A stretch of 33,595 nucleotides of DNA from an uncultured Ilumatobacter sp. Lineage in GTDB: Bacteria; Actinomycetota; Acidimicrobiia; Acidimicrobiales; Ilumatobacteraceae. Made by a program: the position numbers and the translations under genes. Below, one piece after another: positions 317-27,495 of the stretch; position 1 is the stretch's first letter; each line of letters opens with the position of its first letter. The stretch covers positions 1-33,595 of the forward strand of contig CALFRK010000134.1 of NCBI GenBank assembly GCA_937919625.1, read 5' to 3'. The notes under the pieces are model-generated. The model was not told the DNA's origin. It ran no database searches and saw only the letters and a program-made list of their open reading frames with translations.

Positions 317-2953
317 ATGCCAACGGTCCGCACTACTGACGATCGACAGAGTGTCCTCGGCCGCATACACGCATCGGTGCGTGTGCTCGTGTACGCCGCC
401 ATCCTGGCCGCGATCGGCGCCGGCCTGTTCTTCCTCACGCCATCGTGGACCACCGTTCCGGACCGTGCGTGGTCGCTGCCGTTCTTCGCACTCGTGATCG
501 CCTTCGGACTGACCGAAGCAACCGCGCTCCACGTCGAGATCCGCAAAGAATCACACTCGCTCTCGCTCGCCTGCATCCCGTTGATGTTCGGGCTGCTGTA
601 CACGAGCCCGGCGCTGGTCCTCGTTGCGTACGTGCTGGGCGGGACCACCACATTGCTGTGGATCCGCAAATCCGACCTCATCAAGGTGATCTGGAACACA
701 TGCCTGTTCATCGCCCAGGTGGGTCTGGCGGGCCTACTGGTTCACGCCGTGCTAGGCGAACGTCTGCCAGAACGCCCAGTCGAATGGCTTGTTCCACTTG
801 GTGCGGTGGTCGCCGCCGAACTTCTCAGCCTGGTCGCGGTTCCGCTCGTAATCATGGCCGTCGACGGCCAGTTCAGACCAAACCTGTTCGCCAGCGTGGG
901 CCGATCACAGATTCTGGCGGTGCTCGCCGGCACGTTCGCCGTTACAGCGTTGTCGGCATCGCTGGCGAGCCCCTACATGGCGATTTTCGCCTTCGTGCCG
1001 CTCGTCGGCGTCGGCTGGTTGTTGCGCAGCAGTGGAGAGCTCTCCCAAGACTTCAGGGACCTGCAACAGCTGCTGACCTTTACACACGCGCTTGCCAATC
1101 AACGCGGGGCCCGAACCCTGGACATCGGTCTTGTCGAGTTGGTCCAGATCATGCGGTCGCGGTCCGCCGGTCTGGCCGTGGTCGGTAAACGCGACGGCGA
1201 CCAACACAATTCGACGATTCGAATGCTTGTCGACGACACGTTCGTGGACCTTGATCCCGAGCCACTAAGCGGAATGCTGATCGATCTGCCCGAGGGCAGC
1301 GCCGTCACTGAGCTCAACCTCGACGACGCTCGGGATGGCGCCCGCCAAATCCTCGAGCGGCTCGGATCGAACAACGTCATTGCCGTGCGGGTGCTCAGCG
1401 AAGTCGACGCCGAGGCGGTGCTGTTCGTTTGCGATCGACTCGGCATGCGAGACAACTTTGTCGTCGACGAGCTTCGGTTGTTCGGGTCCCTGGCCAAAAC
1501 ATTGAGCGGACGTCTCTCCAACGACTACTTGGTCGGGCGATTGGAGAACCAGGCGCACACCGATGCGCTCACAGGGCTGGCCAACAGATTGAGCTTCGAG
1601 ATTGGCTTGACCGCCAACCTTGCCAGAACAGGTCAGCGCGGCGCTGTCATCATGATCGACCTCGATCGCTTCAAAGACGTCAACGACTCGCTCGGGCATG
1701 AGACCGGCGACCGCCTCCTCATCGAGATCGCCAACCGCCTGCGGTCCAACACGCTCGCCGCCGACATGGTGTCACGGTTTGGTGGCGACGAGTTTGCCGT
1801 CATGTTGGGCTGCGTCGACCCAAACTGCCCTGACGACCTGACCGAACGGGCCGACAACCTCCGCGACGCACTCACCGCCAAGGTCGAGCTCGAAGGCATC
1901 ATGTTCGAGGTCGGTGCCAGCGTCGGTGCCGCGTCTTGGCCCGCGCAAGGCACCGATAGCAGCACGCTGCTGCGCCGAGCCGACGCAGCCATGTACGAAG
2001 CAAAGCGCAATCAACTCGGTGTGGTCTGGTACCACCCCCGGCTCGAGGCTGATGCACCGCGTCGACTCGATCTGTACCTTTCCGTGGGCTCGGCGCTCGA
2101 GAAGGAGGACTTCTACGTCCACTTTCAGCCCAAGGTGTCGCTCGTCGACGGTCAAATCACGGGGGCTGAGGCGCTGGCGCGGTGGTCGCATCCCGTGTAC
2201 GGCACCATCTCCCCCGCCGAGTTCATCCCCTTGGTTGTTCAGGCGGGGCTGATCGGCAAGCTCACACGGCTGGTCGTCCAGCGTGCCACCGAGGCCGCCG
2301 CCACTTTCCGGGATGCCGGTCTCAGCATTCCAGTCGCCGTCAATCTCACACCACGCGATCTGCTCGATCCAACGCTCGTCGACGAAATCGCGCAGCAGCT
2401 CCGGACGACCGGCCTCGACCCCAGTTCGTTGACGGTGGAGATCACCGAGGATGCGATGGTGGTCGATTTCGACACGAGTGTCCTGACGTTGACCAAAATG
2501 CGAGATCTGGGCATACGCGTCGCGATCGACGACTTCGGTACTGGGCACGCATCGCTGCAACATCTACACCGGCTGCCGGTAGACGACCTGAAGATCGACG
2601 AGAGCTTCGTCAACCGAGTTAGCACCGACCCCAGCGCCGAGGCGATTGTGCGAGGGTCGATCAACTTGGCCCGCGATCTCGGACTCTGCGCGATTGCCGA
2701 GGGCATCGAGGACGCTCATACGCTTCGCACCGTCGCCCGAATGGGATGCCGCGAGATGCAAGGCCGGCTCGTGAGTCGACCGGTACCGCTCCACGAATTC
2801 GTCCAGTGGGAGCGCAGCTGGAATCCGAGCTGGTTGGTCGACAGCCTGGCCGAGCCCAACCCGAGACCCGATTCGGTGTCAGTGGCGATCCACGATGACC
2901 CGACCGCGCTCAGCTCTTCGCAGCCGCCCAGGTTGTTCCCCAGGCCACGTTGA
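317..2953 (+). CDS. Membrane-bound GGDEF-EAL cyclic-di-GMP enzyme
   Basis: Predicted to make and/or break the second messenger cyclic di-GMP. Residues about 23-236 are a run of hydrophobic segments (roughly 6-8 membrane helices), a sensory membrane module I cannot assign to a named family. Residues about 245-410 look GAF-like. The GGDEF domain (about 410-570) has an intact GGDEF at 489-493. The inhibitory I-site is missing: the RxxD position is LAAD. The EAL domain (about 585-840) keeps EALARW (618-623), NLTPRDL, EITED, DDFGTG, LKID, AEGIE and the terminal QGxLxSRP region, so phosphodiesterase activity looks possible. The start is set by a near-perfect ribosome binding site. The gene converges on polA and their coding ends overlap by 44 bases. 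Confidence 0.93.
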   Translation: MPTVRTTDDRQSVLGRIHASVRVLVYAAILAAIGAGLFFLTPSWTTVPDRAWSLPFFALVIAFGLTEATALHVEIRKESHSLSLACIPLMFGLLYTSPALVLVAYVLGGTTTLLWIRKSDLIKVIWNTCLFIAQVGLAGLLVHAVLGERLPERPVEWLVPLGAVVAAELLSLVAVPLVIMAVDGQFRPNLFASVGRSQILAVLAGTFAVTALSASLASPYMAIFAFVPLVGVGWLLRSSGELSQDFRDLQQLLTFTHALANQRGARTLDIGLVELVQIMRSRSAGLAVVGKRDGDQHNSTIRMLVDDTFVDLDPEPLSGMLIDLPEGSAVTELNLDDARDGARQILERLGSNNVIAVRVLSEVDAEAVLFVCDRLGMRDNFVVDELRLFGSLAKTLSGRLSNDYLVGRLENQAHTDALTGLANRLSFEIGLTANLARTGQRGAVIMIDLDRFKDVNDSLGHETGDRLLIEIANRLRSNTLAADMVSRFGGDEFAVMLGCVDPNCPDDLTERADNLRDALTAKVELEGIMFEVGASVGAASWPAQGTDSSTLLRRADAAMYEAKRNQLGVVWYHPRLEADAPRRLDLYLSVGSALEKEDFYVHFQPKVSLVDGQITGAEALARWSHPVYGTISPAEFIPLVVQAGLIGKLTRLVVQRATEAAATFRDAGLSIPVAVNLTPRDLLDPTLVDEIAQQLRTTGLDPSSLTVEITEDAMVVDFDTSVLTLTKMRDLGIRVAIDDFGTGHASLQHLHRLPVDDLKIDESFVNRVSTDPSAEAIVRGSINLARDLGLCAIAEGIEDAHTLRTVARMGCREMQGRLVSRPVPLHEFVQWERSWNPSWLVDSLAEPNPRPDSVSVAIHDDPTALSSSQPPRLFPRPR

Positions 2954-5579
2954 CCTCGAACGGCACATTGAGCTCGGCGGCACCCCTCATCAGGTCGATC
3001 ACGAGCTCACCGACTACATCGTGTTCGTCGGCGGGCACCTCGACGATGACCTCGTCGTGGACCTGCAACACGAGTTCGCTTTGGTAACCGCCTACCTCGA
3101 GTGCCTCATCGATGCGAATCAAGGCCACCTTGAAGATGTCGGCAGCCAGGCCTTGAATGCCAGCGTTCATTGCCTGCCGCTCGCCGGCCTGCCGGATCCG
3201 CCAGTTCGAGTTGAGTAGCTCAGGGATCGGGCGGCGGCGGCCGAACAACGTTTCGGTGTAGCCAAGCTTGCGTGCCTCCTGAACCGTGGACTCCATGTAC
3301 GCCTTGACGTTCGGGAACGCAACGAAATAGGCGTCGAGGATGACCGCCGCCTGATCGGTCGGGATTCCGAGCCGTTGTCCGAGACCATAGGCCTCCATGC
3401 CGTAGGCAAGGCCGTACGACACCATCTTCGCCTTCGAACGCTGCTCGAGCGTGACGTCGCCGGGATCGACCGAGAATACCCGCGCCGCCGTTGCGTTGTG
3501 AATGTCTTGTCCGGTGGTGAACGCCTCGATCAGACCAGGATCGGCTGCCAGATGGGCGATGCAGCGCAGCTCGATCTGGTTGTAGTCGGCGACCAGCAAC
3601 GACATGCCCTCGCTGGGCACGAACGCCGTGCGAAAAACGCGGCCCTCGTCGCTGCGAACGGGAATGTTGTGGAGGTTCGGCTGATCAGAACTGAGCCGGC
3701 CTGTACGCGCCACCGTCTGGTTGAACGTGGCGTGAATGCGACCGTCTTCGGCGACCTCGCTCAGCAGCCCTTCGCCATAGGTGCCGCGCAGCTTCTCGAC
3801 CTCGCGGTGACGCAGCAACGGCACGATGAACTCGGGCCACTGGTCCCTCAATTTCTCCAGCGTCTGAGCGTCGGTCGAATACCCCGACTTCGTCTTCTTG
3901 ACACCAACCGGGCTGAGTCCACGTTGTTCGAACAGCAGTGCCCGCAACTGAGTTGGCGAGTTCAGATTGAGATCGTCGCGTTCTGCCACCTGTCGAAGCT
4001 CGGTTCCGAGTGACTCGACTTCGGCGGTCAGCCTGTCGTTGATCGCCCGCAACGTGTCGGCATCGACGCCGACACCGACGTGCTCCATCTTGGCCAACAC
4101 TCGCACCAGCGGGTTCTCGATCGAGTGGTACAGATCGGACATGCCGAGGGCATGCAGGCTGGCCTCGATCGGACCGGCGATGTGATGGACCGCGAGAGCG
4201 TCGCGCCCCGCGCGTTCAGCATCGGTCACCGCGTTGCCTGTGAGGTCGAGTTGCCCAGCCGCCGCAGCGTCGTCGCCCGGTGGCGCAAACCCGGTGAACT
4301 TGAGCAACAGGTCGGCCAGTTCGTAGCGGGCTTCGGCCGGGTCGATGAGGTAGGCGGCGATCGCCGTGTCGAGCCGCAGCCCGCGCACATCGACATCAGC
4401 TTCCAGCAGCGACCTCATCAACGGCTTGACGTTGTGCCCGCGGACGTGGGCATGCCCGCCGATCGCTATGGCGACGGCGTCGTCGCGCATCAAGGCACCC
4501 GGAATCCAGGCGACGGCCGAGGTGCCGGGCTCGGTGACGATCGCCACTCCACGAAGGCTGCTGCGTCCTGGTTCGCGATCCCATGCCGCCGCGATATCGA
4601 GCACATCCAGGCTGGCGATCACCGCCGCCGCGGCCCCGGGATCATCGATGATCCCGACCTCGGCAACCAGTTCGTCACGAGCAGCGCTGGATGCGATGCC
4701 CGAGTTCGGACCGAGCACCTCGGCGAGGCGGTCGCCGAGGGCGCGAAACTCGAGGAAATCGAACAGGCGTTGCAGCTCATCGGGCTTGGGTTGGATCGCC
4801 AGCGAATCGAGATCGACCGACTCGATCGGGGCGTCGTGGCGAAGGATCATCAGTTCGAGGTTCTTGCGGGCCCGCGCCTCGTACTCGGTCAGATTCTGGC
4901 GAAGCTTGGGCGTCTGCTCGTCGACATGGGCAAAGATTCCGTTTAGACCGCCATAGGTATTTATCAGCTTGGCGGCGGTCTTTTCACCCACGCCAGGCAC
5001 GCCCGGCAGGTTGTCAGAGTTGTCGCCGCGCAGAGCCGCGTATTGCGGGTACAACGCCGGCGTGACACCCGTTCGTTGCTCGATGCCCGCTTCGTCGTAG
5101 AGGGCGTAGTCGCTGACTCCGCGCTTGTTGTACATCACCTTGACGTGCGGATCCTTGACGAGTTGGTAACTGTCGCGGTCGCCGGTGACGATCACGACAT
5201 CGTCACCGCGACGCACCAGCGTGGTGGCCAAGGTGGCGAGCAGGTCGTCGGCCTCCCAGCCAACGGCCTCGACCCACTGGATTCCAACGGCGTCTAGCAC
5301 CTCTCGCACGAGCCCCATCTGTTGACGCAGGATGTCGGGGGCAGCTTCACGCTGGGCCTTGTACATGGGTTCGGCCTCGTGACGAAAGGTTGGCTCGGGG
5401 CGATCGAAGGCGACGATTATGCCGTCAGGCTGTTGATCCTTGATGACATTGATCATCATCGAGGTAAACCCAAATACGGCGTTGGTGACCTGGCCGCTGG
5501 CTGTTGCCATGTCGGACGGCAGGGCGAAGAACGCCCGATAGGTCAAAGAGTTGCCGTCGACGAGGAGATACTTACCCAC
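2910..5579 (-). CDS. polA: DNA polymerase I
   Basis: 889 residues, from a GTG start. The N-terminal 5' nuclease domain (about 1-290) has VDGNSLTYRAFF, VAFDRPEPTFRHE, EADDLLA, TGDRDSYQL and GDNSDNLPGVPGVGEKTA. The middle domain (about 300-490) is a degenerate 3'-5' exonuclease: the DxE of the first exonuclease motif is absent (AIVTEPG), so proofreading is probably lost, as in Taq and mycobacterial Pol I. The polymerase domain has motif A DYNQIELR (Asp665), motif B with Tyr722 (SYGLAYG) where E. coli has Phe762, and motif C HDE at 841-843. Tyr at that site is known to relax discrimination against dideoxynucleotides and is usual in actinobacterial Pol I. The gene follows the ANTAR regulator by 22 bases, suggesting one transcript. 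It acts in Okazaki-fragment processing and repair synthesis. Confidence 0.97.
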   Translation of the reverse strand: MGKYLLVDGNSLTYRAFFALPSDMATASGQVTNAVFGFTSMMINVIKDQQPDGIIVAFDRPEPTFRHEAEPMYKAQREAAPDILRQQMGLVREVLDAVGIQWVEAVGWEADDLLATLATTLVRRGDDVVIVTGDRDSYQLVKDPHVKVMYNKRGVSDYALYDEAGIEQRTGVTPALYPQYAALRGDNSDNLPGVPGVGEKTAAKLINTYGGLNGIFAHVDEQTPKLRQNLTEYEARARKNLELMILRHDAPIESVDLDSLAIQPKPDELQRLFDFLEFRALGDRLAEVLGPNSGIASSAARDELVAEVGIIDDPGAAAAVIASLDVLDIAAAWDREPGRSSLRGVAIVTEPGTSAVAWIPGALMRDDAVAIAIGGHAHVRGHNVKPLMRSLLEADVDVRGLRLDTAIAAYLIDPAEARYELADLLLKFTGFAPPGDDAAAAGQLDLTGNAVTDAERAGRDALAVHHIAGPIEASLHALGMSDLYHSIENPLVRVLAKMEHVGVGVDADTLRAINDRLTAEVESLGTELRQVAERDDLNLNSPTQLRALLFEQRGLSPVGVKKTKSGYSTDAQTLEKLRDQWPEFIVPLLRHREVEKLRGTYGEGLLSEVAEDGRIHATFNQTVARTGRLSSDQPNLHNIPVRSDEGRVFRTAFVPSEGMSLLVADYNQIELRCIAHLAADPGLIEAFTTGQDIHNATAARVFSVDPGDVTLEQRSKAKMVSYGLAYGMEAYGLGQRLGIPTDQAAVILDAYFVAFPNVKAYMESTVQEARKLGYTETLFGRRRPIPELLNSNWRIRQAGERQAMNAGIQGLAADIFKVALIRIDEALEVGGYQSELVLQVHDEVIVEVPADEHDVVGELVIDLMRGAAELNVPFEVNVAWGTTWAAAKS

Positions 5580-25879: not shown

Positions 25880-26746
25880 TTAATAACCCAGGCGTTCGAC
25901 GCGGTCGGGACGGCGTTGCCAGTCCTTGTCGACCTTCACCCGCAACTCGAGATAGACGCCCTCGGGCATCTGGGCACGGGCTCGGATGCCGACCTCTTTG
26001 AGCACACTGCCGTTCTTGCCTATCACCATGCCCTTCTGGCTGTCGCGCTCGACGATGATGTCGACCCGGATCCGTGGCCACTCCCACTCGGTGACGCGGG
26101 TCGCGATCGAATATGGCAACTCGTCACGTGTGACGGCGAGCAGTTGCTCTCGAACCAGCTCGGCGACGAATTGCTCCTGCGGCATGTCGCTCAGCTCGTC
26201 ATCTGGGAAGAACTTGTGGCCCTCCGGCAGGCGGCCGGTCAGATGCTCGACCATCGGACCGATCCCTTCCCCGGTCTTGGCGGACATCGGAAAGTACGCC
26301 TCTGCATCCAGCGCCCCAGCTGCGGAAAGCATCGCGATCACCTGATTGCCTGTTGCGATATCGGTCTTGTTGACGATCACGATCGCCCGTTGCATCTGCA
26401 GTTTCTCGGCGACCCAGCGGTCACCATTTCCAAATGGCATCGTGGCGTCGAGCACCAGGCACTGCACGTCGACGTCGACGGTGCTCTCGATGGCGGTGGC
26501 GTTGACGCGCTTGCCAAGCGCCGACACGGGCTTGTGTAGGCCGGGGGTATCGACGAACACGAGCTGCGCGTCCGGTCGCGTCAACACCCCCATGATGCGG
26601 TGCCGGGTGGTCTGTGGCTTGTCGGAGACGATGCTGACCTTCTGACCGCAGATGGCGTTGATCAGCGATGACTTGCCGACGTTCGGTCTGCCGACAAAGG
26701 TGATGAAACCCGAACGAAATGGCATTTCCGGCGCGGAATCAGACAT
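25880..26746 (-). CDS. era: GTPase Era
   Basis: 288 residues. Ribosome-assembly GTPase that binds the 3' end of 16S rRNA. It has G1 GRPNVGKS (19-26), the switch TTRHRIMG, G3 DTPGLH, G4 NKTD and G5 SAK, then a KH domain with VERDSQKGMVIGKNGSVLKEVG. The ATG at 26746 overlaps the stop of the small acyl-CoA-synthetase-like gene upstream by eight bases (ATGTCTGA). A longer frame upstream is unrelated. Confidence 0.96.
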   Translation of the reverse strand: MSDSAPEMPFRSGFITFVGRPNVGKSSLINAICGQKVSIVSDKPQTTRHRIMGVLTRPDAQLVFVDTPGLHKPVSALGKRVNATAIESTVDVDVQCLVLDATMPFGNGDRWVAEKLQMQRAIVIVNKTDIATGNQVIAMLSAAGALDAEAYFPMSAKTGEGIGPMVEHLTGRLPEGHKFFPDDELSDMPQEQFVAELVREQLLAVTRDELPYSIATRVTEWEWPRIRVDIIVERDSQKGMVIGKNGSVLKEVGIRARAQMPEGVYLELRVKVDKDWQRRPDRVERLGY

Positions 26747-27000
26747 CGCTGGCGTGCCCCGCCCAGAGTGGTTGCCGCAGCTCGCGTTTGAGAACCTTGC
26801 CAGCGCCGGTTTTGTGTGGTTCGTCCATCCAAGAGATCGAACGCGGCGCCTTGTGGCGGGCGAGGTGATCGCGGGCGCAGGTGACCCCGCCGTCATCGGT
26901 GAGCTTGCTGATGTTGCCGTCACGGCGATCGTTGGCGGCGACAAGTTTGTCGGGTTGGCTGGTGGCGTGGGCGGTCAACAGGTCAGTCATCGTCAGTATT
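26739..27000 (-). CDS. Mini-protein of acyl-CoA synthetase termini (internal deletion remnant)
   Basis: About 86 residues from ATG 27000. The first part (DLLTAHATSQPDKLVAA) looks like the N-terminus of an AMP-forming acyl-CoA synthetase. The last part (RDHLARHKAPRSISWMDE...TGAGKVLKREL) is the typical C-terminal subdomain with its catalytic Lys. The roughly 400 residues between, including all ATP- and substrate-binding motifs, are absent. So it is a gene with a large in-frame internal deletion or a small protein derived from one. The frame is intact and overlaps era by eight bases, as if still in an operon. It cannot be a working synthetase. It is divergent from the MaoC gene at 27037. Confidence 0.65.
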
Positions 27001-27036
27001 CGTATCACTTCAGACCTGGATGCCATGCTGGCGGAC

Positions 27037-27495
27037 ATGTCAGCACGCATCATCAATGGCGTCGACGAGTTGAAGAGCCTCGTCGGCGAACACCTCGGCT
27101 ATAGCCCATACGTCGACATCACCCAGGAGCAGGTCAATCTGTTCGCCGAGGCGACCGGCGACCATCAGTGGATCCATGTCGATCTCGAGAAGGCCAACGC
27201 CGGTCCGTTCGGCGGGCCGATCGCCCACGGATACCTGACGTTGTCGCTCGGACCAGCCCTGTACCCGCAGGTGGTCACCATCACGGGGTTTTCGATGGGC
27301 GTCAACTATGGCGCCAACAAGATTCGCTTCCCGTCGCCGGTGATGATCGGCTCGCGCCTGCGGCTCGGAGTCAAGCTGCTCGAAGTCACCGACATCCCAG
27401 GTGGCGCTCAGATGGTGCTGGAGTTCACGTTCGAGTGTGAGGGCGCTGCGAAGCCCAGCTGCGTCGCCGAAATCATCTTTCGTAGCTATCTCTAA
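27037..27495 (+). CDS. MaoC-like (R)-specific enoyl-CoA hydratase
   Basis: 152 residues, single hot-dog domain, very like mycobacterial Rv0130. The hydratase 2 motif FAEATGDHQWIHVD carries Asp42 and His47, and GGPIAHGYLTLSL follows. It hydrates trans-2-enoyl-CoA to the (R)-3-hydroxy form. I prefer ATG 27037; ATG 27025 is possible, and neither has a strong ribosome binding site. The nearby crotonase-type hydratase and the acyl-CoA-synthetase remnant suggest a lipid-metabolism neighbourhood. Confidence 0.9.
   Translation: MSARIINGVDELKSLVGEHLGYSPYVDITQEQVNLFAEATGDHQWIHVDLEKANAGPFGGPIAHGYLTLSLGPALYPQVVTITGFSMGVNYGANKIRFPSPVMIGSRLRLGVKLLEVTDIPGGAQMVLEFTFECEGAAKPSCVAEIIFRSYL

Follow-up and report, generated by a model that had tools for sequence, protein, structure and literature searches.

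In the window analysed here, a stretch of 33,595 nucleotides from an uncultured Ilumatobacter sp., a deletion of about 1.3 kb that kept the frame has taken out the middle of a FadD-like acyl-CoA synthetase gene, as comparison with intact genes of its congeners demonstrates, and has left an open reading frame of 83 codons that still overlaps the start of the GTPase gene era. We consider it probable that this pseudogene is still the first reading frame of the era message and feeds ribosomes to era by termination–reinitiation; the deletion is evident from the congeners, and the coupling is suggested by the anatomy of the locus. In the following, G000 denotes this Ilumatobacter genome and the other G numbers denote the genomes of relatives that were compared with it. 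The features concerned are:

25880..26746, minus strand: era GTPase, 288 aa, with its ATG inside ATGTCTGA
26739..26746, minus strand: ATGTCTGA, era start overlapping the remnant stop by 8 bases; the same in G006 with an intact parent
26739..26990, minus strand: FadD-like acyl-CoA synthetase remnant ORF, ATG at 26990, TGA at 26739, 83 codons
26739..26897, minus strand: C-terminal piece, residues 32–83 and stop, the parent's last 52 residues (54 with the ambiguous Leu-Thr)
26898..26903, minus strand: junction codons CTC ACC (Leu-Thr), which fit either side
26904..26990, minus strand: N-terminal piece, remnant residues 1–29 equal to parent residues 1–29 in ungapped comparison with the G006, G007 and G008 parents
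26999..27004, minus strand: TACGAA, promoter −10-like hexamer, 8 nt upstream of the remnant ATG (leaderless-type spacing)
27037..27495, plus strand: divergent gene that we take to be maoC-like from its sequence, the conserved second flank

An earlier sequence-only reading had proposed the in-frame collapse of an acyl-CoA synthetase to its two ends, and this is borne out by full-length congener genes at the same place. It had described an ORF at 26739–27000 with 86 residues and about 20 N-terminal residues left; the ORF is real, but its true extent is 26739–26990 on the minus strand, its translation gives 83 residues and the N-terminal piece is larger (about 29–31 residues). Residues 1–31 match the N-terminus of the G006 synthetase at an identity level of 65% and the last 48 residues match its C-terminus at 71%. 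The C-terminus also matches the NCBIfam long-chain fatty-acid–CoA ligase model NF004837 (E=1.2e-7), and a Pfam search with the 83 residues gave no match. The motif TSGTTGxPKG, which marks the AMP-binding core of AMP-forming (ANL) acyl-CoA synthetases, is found in the three intact congener genes and is missing from the remnant. The motif PKTGSGK, which is assigned to the C-terminal lysine region of these enzymes, reads HKTGAGK with both lysines kept; the proline and the serine, invariant in 26 intact copies, are gone. The catalytic lysine region, described before as intact, retains the string GKVLKREL but is altered just upstream at an invariant leucine, proline and serine (L>P, P>H, S>A).

Nine of the ten genus genomes searched (own included) gave a match to the remnant. 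In G006, G007 and G008 the gene adjoining era is an intact ORF of 519, 520 and 522 codons, respectively, with the divergent maoC on its other side, and a full-length synthetase upstream of era, which had been named as proof of the deletion, occurs in further genera of the family as well. These intact genes are longer than the remnant by 1308, 1311 and 1317 bp, each a multiple of three. Their best NCBIfam model is NF004837 with 433–434 bits against a cut-off of 476, a score too low to assign an exact subfamily. According to the ungapped alignment remnant residues 1–29 correspond to parent residues 1–29 and residues 30–83 to the parent's last 54, the Leu-Thr pair at the joint being assignable to either side. 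The breakpoint is thus uncertain by a few codons, since the right-hand side has drifted too far for a better placement, and an alignment of the junction to G130 with a gap of one codon can also be drawn. A clean microhomology could not be established there: in G006 the left side reads CTCACG and the right side CTAGCG, and a shared CTC is possible as many relatives have CTC on the right.

The gene era itself was found with high similarity in eight of the ten genus genomes (own included), G003 and G004 giving only distant GTPase matches. Upstream of it these eight genomes have the synthetase (three genomes), the remnant (G000) or no gene at all (G001, G002, G005 and G009, where the maoC–era spacing is 57–119 nt by the matched era start). 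A full-length orthologue with at least 77% identity is present in six of ten genus genomes (G002, G003, G004, G006, G007 and G008), the G004 copy being reported with a single in-frame TAG; the copies of G002 and G003 are located elsewhere, and the G004 contig stops just past its own. These other contexts of the G002 and G003 orthologues are seen at L036 5397–6956 and L035 6840–8396, with L038 80–1648 in the same comparison, and the stretch TACGACATGGC immediately upstream of the synthetase start is common to G002, G003 and G004. Outside the genus the synthetase lies directly upstream of era in G130, G212, G220, G149, G082 and G061. As this order occurs in several genera, we infer an old arrangement that has been lost repeatedly. 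In the era tree G000 and G006 group together with 99% support. Residues unique to one genome are commoner in the era protein of G000 than in that of G006 (13 versus 5 of 285), and near the C-terminus GKNG is found here where the congeners seen have GKGG; these changes are too few to judge.

The surviving ends are themselves altered. Among the last 48 residues, 4 of 23 columns that are invariant in 26 intact family orthologues have changed (Y>H, L>P, P>H, S>A), whereas each intact orthologue, left out in turn, shows 0 or 1 such change. With residues 2–29 added the remnant breaks 6 of 29 invariant positions, versus 0–1 of 23–24 in each intact copy (27 rows, covering residues 2–29 and the last 48; the partial synthetases of G202, G189 and G061 were left out). 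When G000 is compared with both G006 and G007, the sites at which it alone differs number 18 of 83 in the remnant and, in five flanking proteins taken together, 51 of 1315 (Fisher p=2e-8); this flank count leaves out RR2, whose G007 match is a paralogue, and the proteins ECH, CA, LLM, GT, IMP and HK2 could not enter the three-way count for want of a G007 match in the stretch compared. Taken by itself, the ratio of sites unique to G000 to those unique to G006, 18:5 in the remnant versus 52:37 in the flanks with RR2 included, does not differ significantly (p=0.09).

A comparison of dN/dS, proposed earlier as a check, points the same way with less force. In a branch codon model the G000 branch has an omega of 0.21 versus 0.04 in the background (p=0.04), and this value cannot be distinguished from 1 (p=0.18), whereas the branches of G006, G007 and G008 each reject omega 1 with p from 4e-4 to 2e-5. 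The test is weak because synonymous sites, and with them branch lengths, are saturated and because G006 as foreground also departs from the background, though downwards (omega 0.013, p=0.03). Owing to this saturation the claim of decay rests on the invariant columns and the site counts. What is left is an ORF of 83 codons without the adenylating core which, by sequence comparison, is decaying as a protein under relaxed constraint.

Such decay at invariant sites makes a conserved small protein very unlikely. The idea of a new role for the product was raised earlier and is disfavoured by the six broken family-invariant positions; the retained open frame, promoter motif and start region would suit an 83-residue product kept as a new small protein, and yet the single-sequence structure prediction is featureless and without a confident fold (pLDDT 56, pTM 0.12, weak evidence when no alignment is used). 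A second example is also missing among the matches listed in a family search of 221 genomes (own included), 92 of which had matches at E<=1e-9, listed from at most 24 candidates scored per genome. This explanation is therefore very improbable, and the widespread occurrence of the same small gene, which would have made it a real small family, was not seen in this search. Among the matches listed only the own match spans residues 1–83, all others beginning at residue 19 or later. The list contains short open frames in G061 (65 aa), G189 (121 aa), G142 (173 aa) and G199:C130 (65 aa, 40% identity), of which the first two were examined and are cut by contig ends. A structured RNA found no support either: an Rfam search of 26500–27200 returned no structured RNA or riboswitch match, and folding is no stronger than that of shuffled sequences (z +1.27, with 90 of 100 shuffles folding at least equally well).

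The same alterations bear on an assembly or binning error that hides an intact synthetase; an assembly error was the second objection raised in the earlier reading. The assembly consists of 185 contigs and is 98.73% complete and 3.05% contaminated, which leaves some room for such an error. Nevertheless, the misassembly of an intact gene would not be expected to alter residues shared by all 26 intact copies, so such a collapse is unlikely, and no orthologous middle was found elsewhere in the assembly; we regard an error of this kind as extremely improbable. A search for an orthologue elsewhere in the own genome found none, the best-scoring other match being 35% identical and the matches of higher identity (39–45%) being short pieces only. 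A second acyl-CoA synthetase on G000:C171 (about 1628–3204; L095 584–2160) is split by a frame change into open frames of 299 and 272 codons, and is either a pseudogene or a sequence error.

It may be asked whether the open frame means anything. Only 2.3% of the single-base changes in the remnant create a stop, and after 20–30 random substitutions the chance of an open frame is 0.63–0.50 (substitutions only, indels lying outside the model). Openness is thus likely enough by chance and alone no proof of selection. Together with the strong protein-level decay this agrees with a plain pseudogene in passing, i.e. a deletion that was in frame by chance, a remnant that drifts with its frame unkept, and an era translated independently. 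Era without any upstream ORF in G001, G002, G005 and G009 fits this explanation too, and it has a real, if minor, chance of being correct. What speaks against it is found on the promoter side of the locus.

The hexamer TACGAA has been retained from the parent, 8 nt upstream of the remnant ATG. The motif TGATACGAATA, which places the hexamer 7–8 nt before the ATG, stands upstream of the remnant as well as of the synthetases of G006, G007 and G008; in G001, where the maoC–era interval holds no gene, TGATACGAATA is found directly upstream of era, and the era motif of this genome is apparently the former synthetase promoter. TACGAA is no strict fit to TANNNT, the −10 motif of Mycobacterium tuberculosis, where 505 genes have a start site at most 5 bp from the start codon (PMC3898074). 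Across the genus TANNNT occurs 9 times at 6–8 nt before starts, versus 8 times over the other 37 offsets (p=1e-6), in a count over 306 candidate starts of 48 ORFs for which the offsets were picked after looking and orthologues, which are not independent, were included. Such spacing is what leaderless messages would leave.

In 11 of 17 family genomes, the near-identical pair G201 and G202 counted among the 11, a related motif (TANNNT or TAnRAA) is found 6–10 nt upstream of a possible start of era; seven control bins of 6 nt, reaching as far as 52 nt, gave 0, 1, 0, 0, 0, 0 and 0 of 17. It is absent from G000, G006, G007, G130, G061 and G009. In the first five of these the synthetase ORF or its remnant overlaps era or stops 1–18 nt before it, and in G008, G212, G220, G149 and G082, with the synthetase directly upstream at wider gaps, the era motif is present. 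Leaderless-type −10 motifs directly before era were observed in G001, G002 and G005, which have no synthetase here (L045 1453–1510, L041 1430–1504, L046 about 2349–2451).

For the plain pseudogene this means that three of the four genomes without an upstream ORF carry a promoter-like motif immediately at era, G009 being the one in which none was found. In G000 there is not a single TA dinucleotide between the remnant ATG and the era ATG, which makes it very likely that the message begins at the remnant or ahead of it. Since no other promoter motif precedes era, a transcript shared by remnant and era is suggested, and this message most likely begins at the remnant, which would be translated first. 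The energies of pairing with the anti-SD tail are less one-sided. Upstream of era pairing reaches −6.2 kcal/mol, slightly better than the 25th percentile of the background (−5.7), so direct initiation on era is possible, and upstream of the remnant it is weak (−4.9 kcal/mol). The stretch GAGGTGAT upstream of the G006 synthetase pairs at −8.9 kcal/mol, beyond the 5th percentile (−8.4); this would suit a leadered message, although the stretch lies 13 nt from the ATG, and it speaks against a leaderless parent in G006, which makes a leader ORF slightly less likely and the plain pseudogene slightly more.

We still prefer translation of era by way of the remnant. The eight-base overlap between the two, noticed already from the sequence alone, is confirmed as ATGTCTGA at 26739–26746 and is present in G006 with its intact parent; since G006 is the sister of G000, the overlap is probably older than the deletion and its geometry was probably inherited. 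The proposal that the ORF was kept for translational coupling to era is hence matched by promoter and overlap anatomy, but the coupling itself is only suggested by them and the overlap is probably no novelty of the remnant. In the proposed sequence of events the era message would start at the remnant ATG, where ribosomes would load; having translated the 83 codons, they would terminate at the TGA in ATGTCTGA and begin anew on era. The stub would be tolerated, its frame perhaps protected, as leader ORF of a housekeeping gene, and its amino acids would drift. In its modest form this is an ordinary gene remnant that may persist because era translation passes through it. The bolder form, a dead gene turned into a leaderless leader ORF, a translational runway with selection acting on frame and ends and not on amino acids, is put forward tentatively and is rather unlikely.

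As a kind, a deletion remnant is ordinary. With the FadD-like AMP-forming acyl-CoA synthetases (NF004837) this one shares both ends, the position between maoC and era and the promoter motif; it differs by the missing adenylate-forming core and the altered surroundings of the C-terminal lysine. Termination–reinitiation pairs resemble it in the stop/start overlap, and in Escherichia coli a short 3′ part of the upstream gene is enough: for two gene pairs the last 15 nt sufficed, as described in a coupling study (PMC10666635). That study emphasises the common overlaps of 4 and 1 bases and not 8, and here the upstream ORF is a dead gene. The leaderless transcripts of M. tuberculosis (PMC3898074) have a comparable −10-like hexamer close upstream of the ATG, but TACGAA deviates from strict TANNNT, and here the spacing of the motif suggests a leaderless message. 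In the open-access literature nothing was found on this locus or on a remnant kept for coupling.

The genus thus offers a natural series at one locus, namely promoter–synthetase–era (G006, G007, G008), promoter–remnant–era (G000) and promoter–era (G001). Its interest lies in these three architectures behind one promoter motif and in the possibility that a dead gene persists to serve as a runway for ribosomes. This series makes it testable how a housekeeping gene that overlaps a dispensable gene survives the loss of the latter, and whether in-frame remnants, perhaps annotated as small proteins, persist as leader ORFs.
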